This document shows positions 28,146 through 35,008 of a stretch of 35,804 nucleotides of DNA, in pieces (within the stretch, counting starts at the first letter, position 1; the number at the start of each line of letters is the position of its first letter). This DNA is from Gammaproteobacteria bacterium (lineage in GTDB: Bacteria; Pseudomonadota; Gammaproteobacteria; GCA-2400775): contig NVRF01000003.1 in NCBI GenBank assembly GCA_002400775.1, forward strand, positions 563-36,366, given 5' to 3'. The notes beneath the pieces are model-generated. The model was given only the letters and a program-made list of their open reading frames with translations. It was not told where the DNA came from and did not search any database. Made by a program: the position numbers and the translations under genes.

Positions 28146-29522
28146 ATGAAATCTGTTTTTTTCTCCGTATTTTCAATATTTTTTGCAATATTACTCTGCA
28201 ATAAACTTGTGTATGCTTCTCACGTCATTCCAAACCAGTATATTGTTGTCTTTAAAGATCAGAACATGAATGTTCCGGCAAAAGCCAATATTGCCGAAAC
28301 AGGTGAGCTAGTTAAGCAAGCCTGCGAACGTTTAATGACTGAGGTAAAGCAAAATCAGTTTTTAGTTAAAAACAGACGTGGTAGAAGAGCACAAAGAAAC
28401 ACAATACCCAATGAAATGATTTCGGTTTATGAGCATGCTCTGAAAGGATTTTCAGCCACGCTAACTCCTGCCGCCATAGCATATTTGAAAAACAAACCAG
28501 AAATTGCTTATATCGAAGCAGATGGAATCGTCACACCGAGTGTAGTGCAGGTCTCCCCCCCGTCATACGGACTGGATCGGGTTGATCAGCGAAATCTGCC
28601 GCTTGACCGGTCGTATACATTTAACACAGATGGTAGCGGTGTTCATCTTTATGTTATTGATTCCGGTATCAGAACTACACATGCTGAATTTGTTGGCAGA
28701 ATTGATAATGGTTTTGATTTTGTCGATAACGATACCAACCCTAGCGATTGCAATGGGCACGGCACACATGTTACTGGTACAGCAGCCGGCACCAATCACG
28801 GTATCGCTAAAAATGTCACCATACATCCGGTACGTGTCTTTGGCTGTTCAGGCGACACCTCTTTTAGCGTAATTATTTCAGCTATAAATTGGGTTGTGAA
28901 TAACTTGCAGCTACCTGCTGTAACAAATATGAGCTTGGGTGGTAATCGCAGCACAACGATCGATACTGCGGTCAACAACCTGATCAACAGCGGTGCAACA
29001 GTCACTGTCGCCGCTGGCAACAGCGGCAGTAATGCGTGCGCCGAAAGCCCTGCGGGCGTAGCCAATGCAATCACTGTTGCGTCTTCCACCTCCACAGATC
29101 AGCGATCAGGTTTTTCCAATATTGGGCAATGTGTTGACCTGTTTGCACCGGGGAGTGCCATCCCATCCACTTGGTGGACTGGCGATACAGCAACTATGAT
29201 TTTAAGTGGGACGTCTATGTCGTCGCCGCATGTGGCTGGGGTAGCAGCACTATACCTTCAGCAAAACCCAACTGCATCACCTGCGCAAGTAGCCAATGCT
29301 GTCATTAGCGGCTCAACCACCAACGCAATTGCTAATGCAGGGGCTGGCACGCCCAACCGACTCCTTTACAGTGCACTAACCGAAGAACAACCACCGATAG
29401 TGGAAGAGCCACCTGTGGTGGAAGAGCCACCTGCAGTGGAAGAGCCACCTGCAGTGGAAGAGCCACCTGTAGTGGAAGAGCAGCCTACCCGGCGACAAAG
29501 ACACCGCCGCCGGCACCGCTAA
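28146..29522 (+). CDS. Secreted subtilisin-like serine protease (S8, proteinase K type) with PPxVEE tail
   Basis: A 458-residue pre-pro-protease. The signal peptide is about 1-25. An inhibitor I9 propeptide follows (about 28-125, IPNQYIVVFKDQN through ALKGFSATLTPAAIAYLKN and IAYIEADG). The catalytic domain is about 138-410 with Asp172 (YVIDSGIRTTH), His205 (NGHGTHVTGTAAG), the oxyanion Asn in AAGNSG and Ser357 (SGTSMSSPHVAGVAALYL). Four or more Cys residues in the domain fit disulfide-stabilised proteinase-K relatives. The C-terminus has five 6-residue repeats PPxVEE and a basic RRQRHRRRHR end, not a known anchor. It is preceded by AAGGAATG and lies beside two dead IS elements. It probably degrades extracellular protein after autoprocessing. 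Confidence 0.93.
   Translation: MKSVFFSVFSIFFAILLCNKLVYASHVIPNQYIVVFKDQNMNVPAKANIAETGELVKQACERLMTEVKQNQFLVKNRRGRRAQRNTIPNEMISVYEHALKGFSATLTPAAIAYLKNKPEIAYIEADGIVTPSVVQVSPPSYGLDRVDQRNLPLDRSYTFNTDGSGVHLYVIDSGIRTTHAEFVGRIDNGFDFVDNDTNPSDCNGHGTHVTGTAAGTNHGIAKNVTIHPVRVFGCSGDTSFSVIISAINWVVNNLQLPAVTNMSLGGNRSTTIDTAVNNLINSGATVTVAAGNSGSNACAESPAGVANAITVASSTSTDQRSGFSNIGQCVDLFAPGSAIPSTWWTGDTATMILSGTSMSSPHVAGVAALYLQQNPTASPAQVANAVISGSTTNAIANAGAGTPNRLLYSALTEEQPPIVEEPPVVEEPPAVEEPPAVEEPPVVEEQPTRRQRHRRRHR
29391..29480 (+). repeat. Five 18-bp tandem repeats encoding PPxVEE
   Basis: Units of CCACCTGYRGTGGAAGAG run in frame inside the protease tail, with x being I, V, A, A, V. The near-identity of units at the DNA level makes copy number prone to change. 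Confidence 0.9.
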
Positions 29523-30190
29523 AATTAGTATAGATAAGGAGCCGCCCCACGAAGAAGATTATAAAACTTAGGGGTAAGACCAAGTCTATCGATAATTGTC
29601 TCCGTTTCTCAGCCTAGCGAAATAAAAAATGCCCACCGATTGGGGTGGGCATAAATTACCAGAACAAATCCAGGCTTCCCTATTAGAATTGCTATACCAA
29701 CAACACCCTTGACACTCATGGTAAGGTCGCCAGCTTCATCAATACGATGGTGCCGTAGTTAACGTGTTTTTTTCTTCTTGAAATGTCGCAACAGACGGCA
29801 GACAGGTTGACAATAAATTTTCATTTGGAATTATGGGGCGGTGCAGTCCGTGTATCGGCTAGTGGTTCTAAGTCGTTTACCACTTGCGATCGTCCCACAC
29901 GCCATAACAAGGAATTTTTCATAAAGACTAAAACATAAGAAAGTCCAAACTATAGAAGAGGTATTTGAATACTCATGTATAAATTCCTAATAAAACTAAG
30001 AATTCTCCATTTTGAGTAAATTTTTTGGGTATGAGGAACATCAACTACTCTGAAGCAAAATATAGATAGGTAAATGCCCACTTTTTAATGAACGTGCATA
30101 AAAAAACTCGCTTTTTCAAAAGCTCCGATTCGCGCTTGATTCTTTTTCCTTCTTTAACAAAAAAAACCAGCAAACCCTCGTCGCAAACAT
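29523..30190. other. Gene-free region downstream of the protease
   Basis: About 670 bases without a supportable gene. It contains one hairpin (29631-29650, listed separately) and a stretch at 29720 that resembles an insertion-sequence end (GGTAAGGTCGCCAGCTT), without any transposase. Short open frames near 30045-30240 look non-coding. Confidence 0.5.
29631..29650 (-). terminator. Hairpin with U-run on the minus strand
   Basis: GCCCACC (29631-29637) pairs with GGTGGGC (29644-29650). Read on the minus strand it is followed by ATTTTTT, the layout of an intrinsic terminator. On the plus strand, after the protease, it lacks a T-run but could still slow polymerase. Confidence 0.55.
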
Positions 30191-30218
30191 GTCCGACGCG
30201 GCAAACCCCGCGCCGGAC
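30191..30218 (-). terminator. Conserved 3' RNA hairpin of DUF5666 copy A
   Basis: GTCCGACGCGG (30191-30201) and CCGCGCCGGAC (30208-30218) form an 11-bp stem with a 6-base loop, 52 bases beyond the stop of copy A. The one mismatched position becomes a G-U pair in minus-strand RNA. An equivalent hairpin follows copy B with compensating differences. The nearest U-run on the minus strand is about 20 nt further on, so it may be a 3'-end or stability element rather than a classic terminator. Confidence 0.6.
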
Positions 30219-30270
30219 GCATAGCACTAATACGTCTTATTTTGTCATCAGTGCCGCCACATCACCAATG

Positions 30271-31896
30271 CTACAATCGGACGATACTGTCATCATCTTC
30301 ATCATCTTCATCTTCATCTTCATCTTCATCTTCATCTTCGTCTTCGAAATCATTGAAGCTGAAGCCGAAATCATCATCTTCAAATTCAACTTCATCGGCA
30401 ATACCATCGGCGGGATTCTCATCGTCGATTTCGACAATGCTACCAATTGCCACCCGACTGAAGAATTCGTTGGCGCTGATATCATCATCGTCGTCTTCAA
30501 ATTCGGTTTGACCATCGATAGTGAAGGTCACACCAAGCAATGTGACTGATTGCGCAGCAGCGTCGAAGGACTGTATTGGAGCTTGTATCTCGATGTCACC
30601 ATCATCGTCATCTTCACGCTCAATCTCACTGGCAAAGACATTGCCGCCGACCAGATAGCCTTCAATCTCAAGAAAGTCACCCGTGCGAACATCACTAATA
30701 TTAAATTGCGATCTGTTGTCATCATCGTCGTCTTCATCTTCAAATTGTGTGCTGAAGTTAACGTTGACATCAATGCTTTGCGAGTTAGGAAACATCATGG
30801 TGATGACGTTGTTAACCGGATCGACTGCCTGTACCCGGGATTCTATTTCAACACTGCCACGGCGCTGGTCTATTCTTTCAGCCATCAGAACACCATTTAC
30901 CCGCCTACCCTCGACCTGAATGACTGCGCCATTTGCCAGATTTTCACCCAGGCGTCTGGGCGAAAATCTGGCGCCACTGGCATCAACTCGCTGATTACCG
31001 ATATTGAACTCAGCGTTGCTAACATAATTGTTGACGCTGCCATTAATGCTGAAGTTGAAGTCGTCAAAATCATCACCAAAGCTTTCATCTTCAATTTCGC
31101 GGGCGTTGATCGTGGTAGCATCCAACGCGGCGATGGTACCTTCGACCTCTACTGTTAATCCATTGGCGATCATATCGTTAGGAAGATCATCAAGGACAGT
31201 GCTGCCATCAACATTAACTGTGATGGAGGCATTTGGCGCTAGCCTTAGAACAAAGCTACTACCATTATAATTTTCAACAACACCGTGCGCCTCGACTTCG
31301 CTTAAATTTGGTGAAAATGATACTCCATCAAGCGCAACATAAGTCGCACGCAACACACCAGTAGTGTCAAAAAATCCACTAATGTCCAAACGATTATTCA
31401 TAGCCACGTTGGCAAAGGTAACCCCACTGCGAAAGACCGTTGATCTCTCGTCAACGGCAACGGTGACACCCAGCACAGAAAAGGTTTTTACCGTGCCATC
31501 AACATTGGGAGCCGGGTTTGTTGCGACCGGGCCTTCAATAACGCTATCAAAGCGAATATTACGGGCGTTACCAGTACGGCTACCGTCAGCGTCACGTGTA
31601 TTGGCCGTACCGTCAACGTGCACGATCATACCCAGCGCTAAATCGTTTTCACTCGCTGGCATATCGTCAATCATGATATTGGCGTCATCTGTATTAAACC
31701 GAATGCCATTAACAAAAACACTACCAAAGCCGGTGATTGCGCCATTCGCACTGACACCCGTGCCAGCAACATCGGAAAAATCTTCACTCACGCCGCCGCC
31801 TCCACCGCCACAGGCGTATAAAACACTGGCAGCAACAATCGATAGTGATCCGTATTTAAGTTTTCTGTTCATCGTTTTTCTAGCATATGTTTTCAT
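30271..31896 (-). CDS. DUF5666 repeat lipoprotein with Glu-Asp tail (copy A)
   Basis: A 541-residue predicted lipoprotein. The lipobox VLYA-Cys29 is followed by a run of six Gly. The body consists of about five repeating beta-rich segments of 70-90 residues, each with forms of V.V(D/E)G and LxxGxxVxVxG (for example GFGSVFVNGIRFNTDDA; LALGMIVHVDGTAN; MIANGLTVEVEGTI; GAVIQVEGRRVNG), as in DUF5666 proteins. Acidic patches occur in the middle (FEDEDDDDDN) and at the end, (ED)n then IVRL. ATG 31896 with AAGGA is used; MNRKL eight residues later equals the start of copy B. It aligns end to end with copy B. Function unknown; cation binding by the acidic segments is a guess. Confidence 0.85.
   Translation of the reverse strand: MKTYARKTMNRKLKYGSLSIVAASVLYACGGGGGGVSEDFSDVAGTGVSANGAITGFGSVFVNGIRFNTDDANIMIDDMPASENDLALGMIVHVDGTANTRDADGSRTGNARNIRFDSVIEGPVATNPAPNVDGTVKTFSVLGVTVAVDERSTVFRSGVTFANVAMNNRLDISGFFDTTGVLRATYVALDGVSFSPNLSEVEAHGVVENYNGSSFVLRLAPNASITVNVDGSTVLDDLPNDMIANGLTVEVEGTIAALDATTINAREIEDESFGDDFDDFNFSINGSVNNYVSNAEFNIGNQRVDASGARFSPRRLGENLANGAVIQVEGRRVNGVLMAERIDQRRGSVEIESRVQAVDPVNNVITMMFPNSQSIDVNVNFSTQFEDEDDDDDNRSQFNISDVRTGDFLEIEGYLVGGNVFASEIEREDDDDGDIEIQAPIQSFDAAAQSVTLLGVTFTIDGQTEFEDDDDDISANEFFSRVAIGSIVEIDDENPADGIADEVEFEDDDFGFSFNDFEDEDEDEDEDEDEDDEDDDSIVRL
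30291..30346 (-). repeat. Triplet run encoding the Glu-Asp tail of copy A
   Basis: About 18 consecutive ATC/TTC/GTC triplets (plus strand) encode alternating Asp and Glu in copy A. The core is a near-perfect ATCTTC hexamer repeat, a likely site of replication slippage in steps of whole codons. The antisense frame reads poly-Ser or poly-Phe/Ile and is not a gene. Confidence 0.85.
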
Positions 31897-31918
31897 GGTT
31901 CATTCCTTATATTTTTCA

Positions 31919-31980
31919 TCAAGAAAGAGAGCGTATTATCGTACTAATACATCCCTGGTAGACTCCTAGATTGACATAGG
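31919..31980 (-). pseudogene. Relic of the 3' end of a DUF6502 gene
   Basis: A TGA at 31919-31921 lies exactly 22 nt upstream of the copy A start, as the DUF6502 stop lies 22 nt upstream of copy B. The preceding bases, read on the minus strand, align with the last codons of that gene (TATTAGTACGATAATAC against TATTACTACGACAATAC, then TTTCTTGA against TTTCTTAA), with a 4-base indel. It appears to be the residue of a second DUF6502 copy. Confidence 0.55.
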
Positions 31981-32158
31981 AAATCTGTTTATAGTTATTA
32001 TCATCTTCCTGAAACACTGCCACCGTCACTCAAAGCAGCGTGCAAAAATCCAATGAACTCAGATCTAAAATATTCCATAACTCAATGTCACTATACGTAA
32101 ATAAGATGAAGGATCGCCTAACAAAAAGATTAAGAATAAATTAAGGGAGATGAAGATT

Positions 32159-32284
32159 ATGGCTTTTCATCAGACCACTTTAGCTCAAGAAATCGTGGCA
32201 ACAATTAAAGAAATTGATTCGGTCACTTTCAGCAGAGACAGCGTTAATAATATATCGATACATAAAAAATACCCACTACGATAA
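32159..32284 (+). CDS. Possible small protein of 41 residues
   Basis: An open frame on the opposite strand within the 525-bp gap between the DUF5666 copies. AAGGGAG stands nine bases before ATG 32159 (an in-frame ATG at 32150 is too close). The product begins MAFHQTTLAQEIVATIKEID and ends HKKYPLR, amphipathic but with no family I recognise. Only the ribosome-binding site and the amphipathic helix support it. It could be a chance frame. Confidence 0.25.
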   Translation: MAFHQTTLAQEIVATIKEIDSVTFSRDSVNNISIHKKYPLR

Positions 32285-32375
32285 CTAACACTCGCCCTTT
32301 AGCTGCCTGATACCAACATAATATTTTGATTTTCTTGTTTTAGTTAGTATTTTTAAATGTCAGCTGACAAAATAC

Positions 32376-32402
32376 GTTCGGCGCGGCAACCCCACACCGA
32401 AC
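32376..32402 (-). terminator. Conserved 3' RNA hairpin of DUF5666 copy B
   Basis: GTTCGGCGCGG (32376-32386) and CCACACCGAAC (32392-32402) with a 5-base loop, 19 bases beyond the copy B stop. Two positions mismatch in plus-strand RNA but become G-U pairs in minus-strand RNA, and GUAUUUUG follows. Together with the copy A hairpin this supports a conserved RNA structure. Confidence 0.62.
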
Positions 32403-32421
32403 GCTTAACCTTGATTACAAC

Positions 32422-34002
32422 CTATCTACCATCATCGTCATCGTCATCGTCATCATCGTCGTCGTCATCGTCATCGTCGTCGTCTTCAAAGTCATTGAAG
32501 CTAAAGCCGAAGTCATCGTCATCAAATTCGACTTCATCAGCGATGCCATCTCCGACTCCATTGTCTTCGATTTCAACAACGTCACCGATCATCACCCGGC
32601 GGAAGAATTCGTCGGCGTTGATATCGTTATCGTTATCTTCAAATTCAGTTTGACCGTTAGTGGTGAAGGTTACACCAAGTATTGTGAGCGATGGCACCAT
32701 AGGATCGAAGGCCCCTACCGGACCTTGCAGTTCGATAAAATCATCGTCATCGTCATCGTCATCGTCGCGCTCGACCTCACTGGCAAAAACAGCGCCGCCA
32801 ACCAGATAGCCTTCAATCTCAAGCAAATCATTAATGCGGATATCGTTGATGCTAAATCGCTGTGACCCGTTGTCATCATCGTCATCAAACTGTGTACTAA
32901 AGGTAACGTTGACGTTGATGCTTTGGTTGTTGGGAAACATCATAGTGATGACGTTGTTGGCCGGATCAACTGCCTGAACCCGGGACTCTATTTCAACATT
33001 GCCACGACGCTGTTCAATGCTGTCAGCGATCAGGGTACCGTTCACCACACTGCCCTCAACCTGAACAACCGCGCCATTACCCAAGTTGGCTCCCAGACGT
33101 GCAGGTAAAAAACGAGCGCCACTGGCATTGATCAGCCAACTGCCAATATTGAAGAACTGAGTGTTGCTATTATAATTACTGATGCTGCCCGTGATGCTGA
33201 AGTTATCAACTTCATCGTCGAAGCGTTCCTCTTCCACTTCTCTGGCGTTGATGATGGTTGCATCCAACGATGCGATAGTGCCATCGACTTCGACCTGCAA
33301 TCCATTGGCGATCATATTATTGGGAAGATCAGAAAGGTTAGTGCTGCCATCAACATTGACCATGATGATTACTCCTGGAGCGAGTCTCAAATCAAAGCTG
33401 TTACCGTTAAAGTTCTCAACAACACCACGTGCCTCGACTTCGCTAACACCAGGGAAGAATGCCGGTTCGTCGAGCGCGACATAAGTCGCACGCAACACGC
33501 CGTTAGCGTCAAAAAATCCACTGATGTCCAAATGGTTATTCATAGCCACGTTAGCAAAGGTAACCCCACTGCGAAAGACTGTTGATCTCTCGTCAACGGC
33601 AACCATAACGCCAAGCACTAAAAAGGTTTTTTCTGTACCGTCGGCGTTAGCTTGCGGGCTTGTTGCGACCGAGCCTTCAATGACGCTATCAAAGCGAATG
33701 TTACGGGCGTTACCAGTACGACTACCATCGGCGCCACGTGCATTGGCCGTACCGTCAACGCGCACAACCATACCCAGGGCTAAATCGTTTTCACTTGCTG
33801 GTATGTCGTCGATCATAATATTGGCTCCATCCGTGTCGAATCGAATGCCATTGACAAAGACACTACCAAAACCCGTAATAGCGCCATCGGCACTAATGCC
33901 AGTACCGCCGATACCCGCTGTGTCACCGCCACCGCCACCGCAGGCATATAACACGCTAGCAGCGACAATAGATAGTGATCCGTATGTAAGTTTCCTGTTC
34001 AT
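32422..34002 (-). CDS. DUF5666 repeat lipoprotein with poly-Asp tail (copy B)
   Basis: A 526-residue paralogue of copy A, matching it almost throughout (for example GFGSVFVNGIRFDTDGANIM; NARNIRFDSVIEG; VDERSTVFRSGVTFANVAMNN; VEIESRVQAVDP.NNVITMMFPN). Lipobox VLYA-Cys21 is followed by Gly residues and GIGGTGISADGAITG. It has the same repeated beta-rich modules and a central acidic patch. The C-terminus is FED followed by a run of 18 Asp in all and GR. The ATG at 34002 follows GAGGAAAAT. A longer open frame to 34089 overlaps the upstream DUF6502 gene and is not used. It begins 22 nt after DUF6502, so the two are co-transcribed. Function unknown. Confidence 0.87.
   Translation of the reverse strand: MNRKLTYGSLSIVAASVLYACGGGGGDTAGIGGTGISADGAITGFGSVFVNGIRFDTDGANIMIDDIPASENDLALGMVVRVDGTANARGADGSRTGNARNIRFDSVIEGSVATSPQANADGTEKTFLVLGVMVAVDERSTVFRSGVTFANVAMNNHLDISGFFDANGVLRATYVALDEPAFFPGVSEVEARGVVENFNGNSFDLRLAPGVIIMVNVDGSTNLSDLPNNMIANGLQVEVDGTIASLDATIINAREVEEERFDDEVDNFSITGSISNYNSNTQFFNIGSWLINASGARFLPARLGANLGNGAVVQVEGSVVNGTLIADSIEQRRGNVEIESRVQAVDPANNVITMMFPNNQSINVNVTFSTQFDDDDDNGSQRFSINDIRINDLLEIEGYLVGGAVFASEVERDDDDDDDDDFIELQGPVGAFDPMVPSLTILGVTFTTNGQTEFEDNDNDINADEFFRRVMIGDVVEIEDNGVGDGIADEVEFDDDDFGFSFNDFEDDDDDDDDDDDDDDDDDDGR
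32431..32484 (-). repeat. GAY triplet run encoding 18 Asp in copy B
   Basis: Eighteen consecutive ATC or GTC triplets on the plus strand give GAT/GAC codons, a pure Asp run. The two codons are mixed, so it is less regular than copy A's hexamer repeat, yet still prone to in-frame length change. Confidence 0.9.
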
Positions 34003-34024
34003 GGCATTTTCCTCATATTTTCCA

Positions 34025-34840
34025 TTAAGAAATAGTATTGTCGTAGTAATAAATCCCCATACTGACGTAAGCGTCCTGCTTGACGTCATGAGAACCTTTT
34101 TTAGTTATCTCATGTTGAGAGAGCCAAATATCCAGCTCTTCGAGTAATTGCTGCGCTTTTGCGCGACTAAGTTCCCTAAATTCGGAAAGTGATGATGCCT
34201 CTATAGACACGTTCGACACCTTACGCTGAAAGCGCCGCTGTTCAGGTGCGGCCGTCAGGTTAAAGTCAATAGTCGAGACCAGTTCAGCGCTGTCGGTGCC
34301 GAGAATATTTAAAATATCAACAGGGTCATTACCCGGCAAGTAAGCGTGTTTCAGCAGTTTAACGCTGTCACCTTCCAGCTGAATTGCCTCTGCGTTAGAT
34401 AACACATCAAGCATGGCGCGCACGGGGACATCACCACTGTAATCGCGCACTAAACTGGCAAATGAGGACCGCTCACCTTCAATGGCTAACAGCAACGGCT
34501 GATCATCGCCATTGAGATAACGGGTGTCATTGAGCCAGCCAGCAATCACCCGGGTGGCGCGGTTGTAGCGTTCGTTTACGCCCTGATCGCCGTTCCCATC
34601 AAGTTCAAGCACACGCTTCGATTCTTTGCGTGTCAGACCAGTAAGGGCCGAGATATGAGAGACAGAGGGCTTACGCCCAGGCACGGCAAATTCGGTATTT
34701 GCGGCTTGGACAAAGGCGTGTTTGGCCCATTCAGCGAATTCGCCATAGGACACACCATTGCGCAACAAAATACGCACAAGCGGTTTTAGCAGTTTAAGTA
34801 CAGCTTTTGACAGTGCCAATTTCAGAGATTGATTTTCCAT
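34025..34840 (-). CDS. DUF6502-family protein with helix-turn-helix-like N-terminus
   Basis: A 271-residue soluble protein. The N-terminal third has LKLLKPLVRILLRNGVSYGEFAEWAKHAF-like text (the GVSY.EF...K..FV pattern of DUF6502) and then KPSVSHISALTGLTRKESKRV, which looks like a winged-helix or HTH unit. The middle has VIAGWLNDTRYLN and FASLVRDYSGDVPVRAMLDVL; the end is coiled (LSEFRELSRAKAQQLLEELDIWLSQHE) with a short tail. It is the first gene of the unit with copy B 22 nt downstream; DUF6502 and DUF5666 proteins recur side by side elsewhere to my knowledge. A regulatory role is inference. ATG 34840 is used; the frame is open to 34894. Confidence 0.8.
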   Translation of the reverse strand: MENQSLKLALSKAVLKLLKPLVRILLRNGVSYGEFAEWAKHAFVQAANTEFAVPGRKPSVSHISALTGLTRKESKRVLELDGNGDQGVNERYNRATRVIAGWLNDTRYLNGDDQPLLLAIEGERSSFASLVRDYSGDVPVRAMLDVLSNAEAIQLEGDSVKLLKHAYLPGNDPVDILNILGTDSAELVSTIDFNLTAAPEQRRFQRKVSNVSIEASSLSEFRELSRAKAQQLLEELDIWLSQHEITKKGSHDVKQDAYVSMGIYYYDNTIS

Positions 34841-35008
34841 GTTTGGTAATATATTCCCAAATAAACAAAACCTCAAATAGATATTAGCAATCAACTTCTA
34901 TAGTTTGATAGTTTAAATTCCTAGAGTGCGACAATAAGGAATAGCAAGGGATTATTCTAAAACAAGTGATCTTTTGAAAGCTTATACTTTGACAGGCTCC
35001 TTAGATCA
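34841..35008. promoter_or_regulatory. Leader of the DUF6502-DUF5666 unit
   Basis: An AT-rich stretch of about 170 bases upstream of the DUF6502 start that should contain the unit's promoter on the minus strand. No specific -35/-10 or operator could be picked out. Confidence 0.3.

Follow-up and report, generated by a model that had tools for sequence, protein, structure and literature searches.

We propose, with good confidence, that the DUF6502 protein encoded in the gammaproteobacterial DNA analysed here (a stretch of 35,804 nucleotides, hereafter the window) is an autoregulatory repressor, most likely a homodimeric winged-helix protein, that governs a regulon of surface lipoproteins. In the mechanism that we put forward, DUF6502 would act as a one-component factor binding a 20-bp palindrome, TTTGGGAATATAWTCCCAAA, with the core TGGGA-N6-TCCCA. 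This palindrome surrounds the -10 box in a promoter close to consensus (TTGACA-N17-TATAAT) and ends 2-4 nt before the ATG, so that the occupied site would block RNA polymerase and the gene would repress itself. The co-transcribed DUF5666 gene, as well as distant DUF5666 genes with the site, would encode OB-fold lipoproteins of the outer membrane, in amounts that DUF6502 would adjust to a signal. For the window, we propose that a duplication of the entire transcription unit predates the split from the species of NORP163; the second regulator then decayed to 27 codons, and lipoprotein A persisted under purifying selection, behind a terminator-like hairpin and without an operator.

The features of this region are collected in Table 1. 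The match of the DUF6502 protein to PF20112 covers positions 3-263 of 268, with a score to be compared with a gathering cut-off of 27, and each of the two lipoproteins shows six stretches of PF18914 (143.9 and 119.9 bits). The source genome is a draft of 1.5 Mb that is 52% complete, and the genome-wide pattern searches described below refer to this draft. At 28146-29522 the window also encodes a subtilase (S8, with an I9 propeptide) whose linker is a repetitive PPVVEEPP stretch and whose C-terminus is rich in Arg and His.

Table 1. Coordinates in the window of the DUF6502-DUF5666 cassette, its duplicate and the associated signals.
Feature	Position	Strand	Remarks
DUF6502 gene, 271 aa	34025..34840	minus	PF20112, 1.9e-69, 234 bits
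Palindromic operator (proposed), TTTGGGAATATATTACCAAA	34842..34861	minus	abuts the DUF6502 ATG
Sigma-70-type promoter, TTGAGG-17 nt-TATATT	34848..34876	minus	-10 box within the palindrome; 9/12 matches
DUF5666 lipoprotein B, 526 aa	32422..34002	minus	PF18914, six stretches; acidic tail
Terminator-like hairpin 3' of copy B	32374..32404	minus	13 bp stem, T-rich tail, z -4.0
3'-end remnant of a second DUF6502, ~27 codons	31919..32017	minus	tblastn and shuffle-tested alignment
DUF5666 lipoprotein A, 541 aa	30271..31896	minus	PF18914, 1.8e-42
Hairpin 3' of copy A, homologous to that of copy B	~30187..30217	minus	z -3.4

The adjacency of DUF6502 and DUF5666 on which the initial annotation had relied was confirmed by a survey of gene neighbourhoods. 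For this, genome contigs were scanned and 79 loci from Gammaproteobacteria, Nitrospirota and others were chosen for their similarity to the window protein, which biases the set to close homologues; in almost all of them a DUF5666 gene was found directly 3' of DUF6502. Likewise, in the relatives sampled initially, a DUF5666 gene came directly after most intact DUF6502 genes and commonly overlapped them by 4 nt. In the full set, DUF5666 directly follows 89 of 99 DUF6502 genes, with the 4-nt overlap in 41, and two of the ten exceptions are contig ends. An even sample of 275 Gammaproteobacteria genomes, 76 of them with DUF6502, linked the two families strongly: DUF5666 (E<=1e-9) was detected in 41 of these 76 genomes versus 3 of 80 sampled among those without DUF6502 (p = 5e-13). 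At the sequence level, the two-gene unit is conserved across several bacterial phyla, and its carriers among cultured strains include Haliea salexigens, Pseudohaliea rubra, Chromatocurvus halotolerans, Thiomicrorhabdus and Motilimonas. At one locus (L067:2708-6864), the neighbours of DUF6502 are not DUF5666 but a FecR-like protein and a protein of the TPR type, which matches Slam (surface lipoprotein assembly modifier) weakly over its full length.

Inspection of the upstream regions revealed a palindrome, TTTGGGA-N6-TCCCAAA, that covers the -10 box at the DUF6502 promoter. Its exact core was present in 67 of 96 DUF6502 upstream regions and in none of 1920 shuffled ones, and with up to one mismatch the number rose to 75 of the 96, where 0.7 were expected. 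The consensus obtained by aligning the sites has TTGACA at -35, a 17-nt spacer and TATAAT at -10 inside the palindrome; at least five of the six -35 positions match in 56 of the 75 sites, versus 2 of 75 in the control, and the ATG comes 2-4 nt past the palindrome in 61 of the 75. With this spacer and a -10 box around 7 nt 5' of the ATG, the sequences have the geometry of a leaderless sigma-70 promoter: a start around 7 nt past this box would coincide with the ATG, and the DUF6502 mRNA is probably leaderless. The site of the window deviates from the core by one mismatch (TACCA), and its two promoter boxes are weaker than the consensus; its palindrome is identical in NORP163 and is the sole close match within its own genome.

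Repression is proposed because the site overlies the -10 box, a placement that usually marks autoregulation when the promoter is the regulator's own. As the end of the palindrome adjoins the ATG, it could alternatively fold within the mRNA, as a 5' hairpin that governs translation. We consider this extremely unlikely, since by the promoter geometry transcription would start at the ATG or close to it, which leaves the palindrome outside the RNA. Moreover, at unlinked DUF5666 genes the site is found 35-92 nt 5' of the start codon and yet still at the -10 position, and the centre of the palindrome retains TATAAT, not the features of a loop.

The proposed operator is conserved at the promoter of DUF6502 itself and at target genes as well. 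It precedes 16 DUF5666 genes that have no DUF6502 before them; the -35/-10 geometry recurs in all except a few of these genes, and eight of the 16 are unlinked, being located on other contigs or a megabase from DUF6502. In three genomes with DUF6502 the site was also found before PF09826 beta-propeller lipoproteins (L218:2897-5062, L219:2993-5149 and L201:561-2801), which, judged by sequence, are likely members of the regulon. Further genes behind sites include some without family assignment. In three related genomes, the gene 3' of the site encodes a conserved protein of 352 aa that has a P-loop-like region and matches MobB weakly (L198:1645-2703, L199:1894-2976 and L057:8690-9748), and in genome G066 an MtrC/MtrF-like multihaem cytochrome (L211:1235-2920) stands behind it, a possible tie to extracellular electron transfer. 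At some of the stand-alone DUF5666 promoters (L190:2397, L207:2893 and L208:5354), a second, degenerate palindrome was observed around 20-25 nt downstream of the first.

The distribution of the site over the 275 Gammaproteobacteria follows that of DUF6502, with 36 genomes containing both, 13 the site only, 40 DUF6502 only and 186 neither (odds ratio 12.9, p = 9e-14). These site counts are lower bounds, since the strict pattern overlooks weaker sites, that of the window included, and under this pattern the exact site is absent in 40 of the 76 DUF6502 genomes. In divergent DUF6502 branches, e.g. in genomes G005 and G039, no clear site was found. Given these gaps and the branches without a site, the model may apply to a single subfamily, and the divergent branches may have other sites or other partners. 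In 13 genomes lacking DUF6502, 14 sites were retrieved; not one precedes DUF5666 or another gene of the kinds listed above, and around half lie inside long ORFs. We discarded the exact sites of such genomes as true operators, as they resemble chance matches or copies of an unrelated repeat. In one of these genomes (G099; L238 and L239), TGGGACTAAAGTCCCA occurs at nine places, partly as close inverted pairs, and looks like an unrelated repeat.

These data also bear on the alternative that some other widespread regulator reads the palindrome, DUF6502 being merely co-regulated, for example as an RNA-binding or assembly factor. Such a role would agree with the absence of a Pfam HTH assignment for DUF6502, with the ability of SelB-like winged helices to bind RNA and with the several site targets that are neither DUF6502 nor DUF5666. 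We regard it as quite unlikely, given that site presence tracks DUF6502 over the 275 genomes, that the sites of genomes without it look like chance, and that DUF6502 is the one regulator-like product at the conserved site, with its own -10 box covered as is usual in autoregulation.

The HTH-like character attributed to DUF6502 from the sequence agrees with its predicted structure. The model (mean pLDDT 80) is helical, with HTH-like helices at residues 60-67 and 71-79 and a second helix pair (127-149) that is followed by a two-strand wing in a winged-helix-like arrangement. The predicted helices and wing would fit an HTH or winged-helix fold; the matches to known HTH proteins, namely the SelB winged helix and other HTH families, are weak. 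None of the HTH models of Pfam matched DUF6502 above threshold, and sequence searches of solved structures returned chance matches only. The motif SxxxxLTGLTRKExKR is conserved among 59 DUF6502 homologues. A search of a literature library for DUF6502 and for the operator sequence found no paper.

The five best PDB matches of the DUF6502 model were HetR chains (around 320 columns, E-values of 1e-3 to 3e-2), and the sites of HetR, from heterocyst-forming cyanobacteria, likewise have GGG...CCC ends (PMC4192349), as might be expected if DUF6502 were a distant transcription factor of the HetR family. We rejected this kinship, which we judge very unlikely. These best fold matches are weak, with TM-scores of only 0.25-0.30, and the profile comparison (hhalign) stayed at background level, with scores of 14-16 against a background median of 13.8 and maximum of 24, so that no sequence relation was found. 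Neither does DUF6502 share the HetR binding core, GGGnnnnnCCC (PMC4192349): the half-sites are separated as GGG-N5-CCC in HetR and as GGG-N8-CCC at the DUF6502 site, and the targets differ as well. In organization, the repressor proposed here resembles the autorepressed operons of the TetR, LexA and MarR types, which likewise combine a regulator gene, a palindrome overlying the promoter of that gene and a small set of targets. It differs from them in that DUF6502 gives no Pfam match to these types, its message is probably leaderless and its targets are mainly surface lipoproteins.

Regarding the targets, both lipoproteins of the window start with MNRKLxYGSLSIVAASVLYAC, with the lipobox LYAC and the cysteine at position 21 in lipoprotein B. 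The bacterial-lipoprotein pattern of signal, lipobox and cysteine was also found in nearly all homologues. The residue after the lipobox cysteine is not Asp, and from the sequence we infer an outer-membrane location. The structure model of lipoprotein B is a row of OB folds, in which single DUF5666 domains match CusF (TM around 0.7) and the chain resembles the bead string of ribosomal protein S1, whereas identity to these proteins is 10-15%, DUF5666 is a predicted exported lipoprotein and the analysis gave no sign of metal or RNA binding. The Pfam entry (PF18914) is a domain of unknown function, to which the row of OB folds, the lipid anchor and the proposed control by DUF6502-type proteins can be added; in the literature search, the name DUF5666 appeared in gene or feature tables.

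The extreme acidic tail that had been regarded as a feature of the system did not hold up. Most relatives end in '...DGIADEVELED', and the tail is found in around 12 of 96 DUF5666 proteins, as several separate gains, so that it was ruled out as a functional hallmark. Its length changes from around 18 D in lipoprotein B to around 8 D in NORP163, as expected from a GAY triplet repeat. The acidic C-terminal tails at four other loci (L107, L118, L132 and L058) have separate origins, in Halieaceae and other lineages, and their repeat units differ.

In the window the cassette was duplicated. The two DUF5666 lipoproteins lie in tandem after DUF6502 and, as initially annotated, align end to end, with 76% DNA identity across 1628 nt and Pfam matches in both. 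The decayed DUF6502 3' end described before copy A was recovered as well. At the nucleotide level, the whole junction upstream of copy A aligned to the DUF6502 3' end with a local score of 81 (maximum of 38 in shuffled sequences), and the part 5' of the remnant stop codon alone with a score of 53 (maximum of 37 in 2000 dinucleotide shuffles). A tblastn search with the DUF6502 C-terminus gave two pieces, 32017-31958 (residues 245-264) and 31955-31926 (residues 262-271, with an internal stop), which are collinear, differ in frame and are the best matches in the window after the DUF6502 gene itself. One DUF6502 was lost, as had been proposed: the remnant carries a frameshift and a stop, and nothing recognisable of the second gene was found beyond these C-terminal codons in the region 5' of copy A. 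The reported spacing of 22 nt, equal to that before B, stands when counted from the remnant stop to the first ATG of copy A (31896). The start homologous to that of B (ATGAAC) is at 31872, 24 nt further in, and copy A consequently has a short extra N-terminus.

The hairpin pattern occurs at two places only in the 1.5 Mb genome, one after each DUF5666 copy, and its stem is preserved between them through paired changes. The duplicated unit therefore spanned at least the stretch from the DUF6502 end to the terminator-like hairpin, and homology across the coding region, the upstream junction and the end hairpin is that of a tandemly duplicated transcription unit, as claimed for DUF6502 plus DUF5666. 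We infer that the unit reached beyond the DUF6502 end and began with the whole gene. A tree built from 96 DUF5666 proteins groups B with the NORP163 orthologue and places copy A as the sister of this pair (support 98-100); dS is around 0.9-1.0 between A and either of them versus 0.26 between B and NORP163. As copy A falls outside the B/NORP163 pair, the duplication is older than the split of these two species; by this sequence evidence it is neither recent nor species-specific, and NORP163, with a single cassette and no copy A, most simply lacks the latter through loss. In NORP163 (L053:1-1600), a tRNA-Arg-like gene and site-specific recombinase-like fragments were read by eye at the place of copy A. 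Extra copies of separate origin exist elsewhere, such as the two complete cassettes of Pseudohaliea rubra (L107) and the order DUF5666-DUF6502-DUF5666 in genomes G037 and G038.

Copy A could instead be a related cassette acquired by transfer beside B. It is around 25% diverged from B as well as from the NORP163 gene, and NORP163 has B only, with the tRNA gene and recombinase-like fragments at A's place. We hold this to be unlikely, because the nearest relative of A is by far the B/NORP163 pair (path of 0.33 versus around 1.7 to the next), A and B are in tandem on one strand and share both the junction and a hairpin that the rest of the genome lacks, and tandem cassettes had separate origins in Pseudohaliea rubra and relatives.

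Selection on both retained lipoproteins, suggested from their open frames, was supported by a dN/dS of 0.17 between A and B (bootstrap 0.12-0.22), well away from 1 and indicative of purifying selection. The values were 0.15 for A versus NORP163 and 0.22 for B versus NORP163, so neither copy looks neutral. On these values, the A and B proteins appear to have been constrained over most of the time since the tandem duplication, with which a recent relaxation of A would be compatible. No operator was detected before copy A, where the best match in the gap has four mismatches, and a terminator-like hairpin stands between B and A; copy A has for these reasons probably escaped control of the DUF6502 type, and it may be expressed via read-through or an unrecognised promoter. 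The window would thus represent a natural case in which a regulon lipoprotein was duplicated and then parted from its regulator.

The uncharacterised envelope system suggested by the initial annotation can be put in sharper terms: DUF6502 resembles a transcription factor that has a conserved operator of its own, with the lipoproteins as the proposed regulon. For PF20112, a family without described function that DUF6502 matches over its full length, operator and regulon are new information. We lean slightly towards the broader view that DUF6502 is the founder of a transcription factor family not described before, in which an autorepressing leaderless operon and a cell-surface regulon would constitute an unrecognised envelope response. 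In Gammaproteobacteria, Nitrospirota and other phyla, this regulon would comprise the OB-repeat lipoproteins (DUF5666), secreted PF09826 beta-propellers and, possibly, multihaem cytochromes of the outer membrane. DUF6502 and DUF5666, two families of unknown function, would in this way be joined in a testable circuit whose regulator, exact 20-bp operator, promoter geometry and target genes are all specified. The operator pattern alone can locate members of the regulon in unannotated genomes, and, as the cassette is carried by cultured strains, binding and regulation are testable at once.
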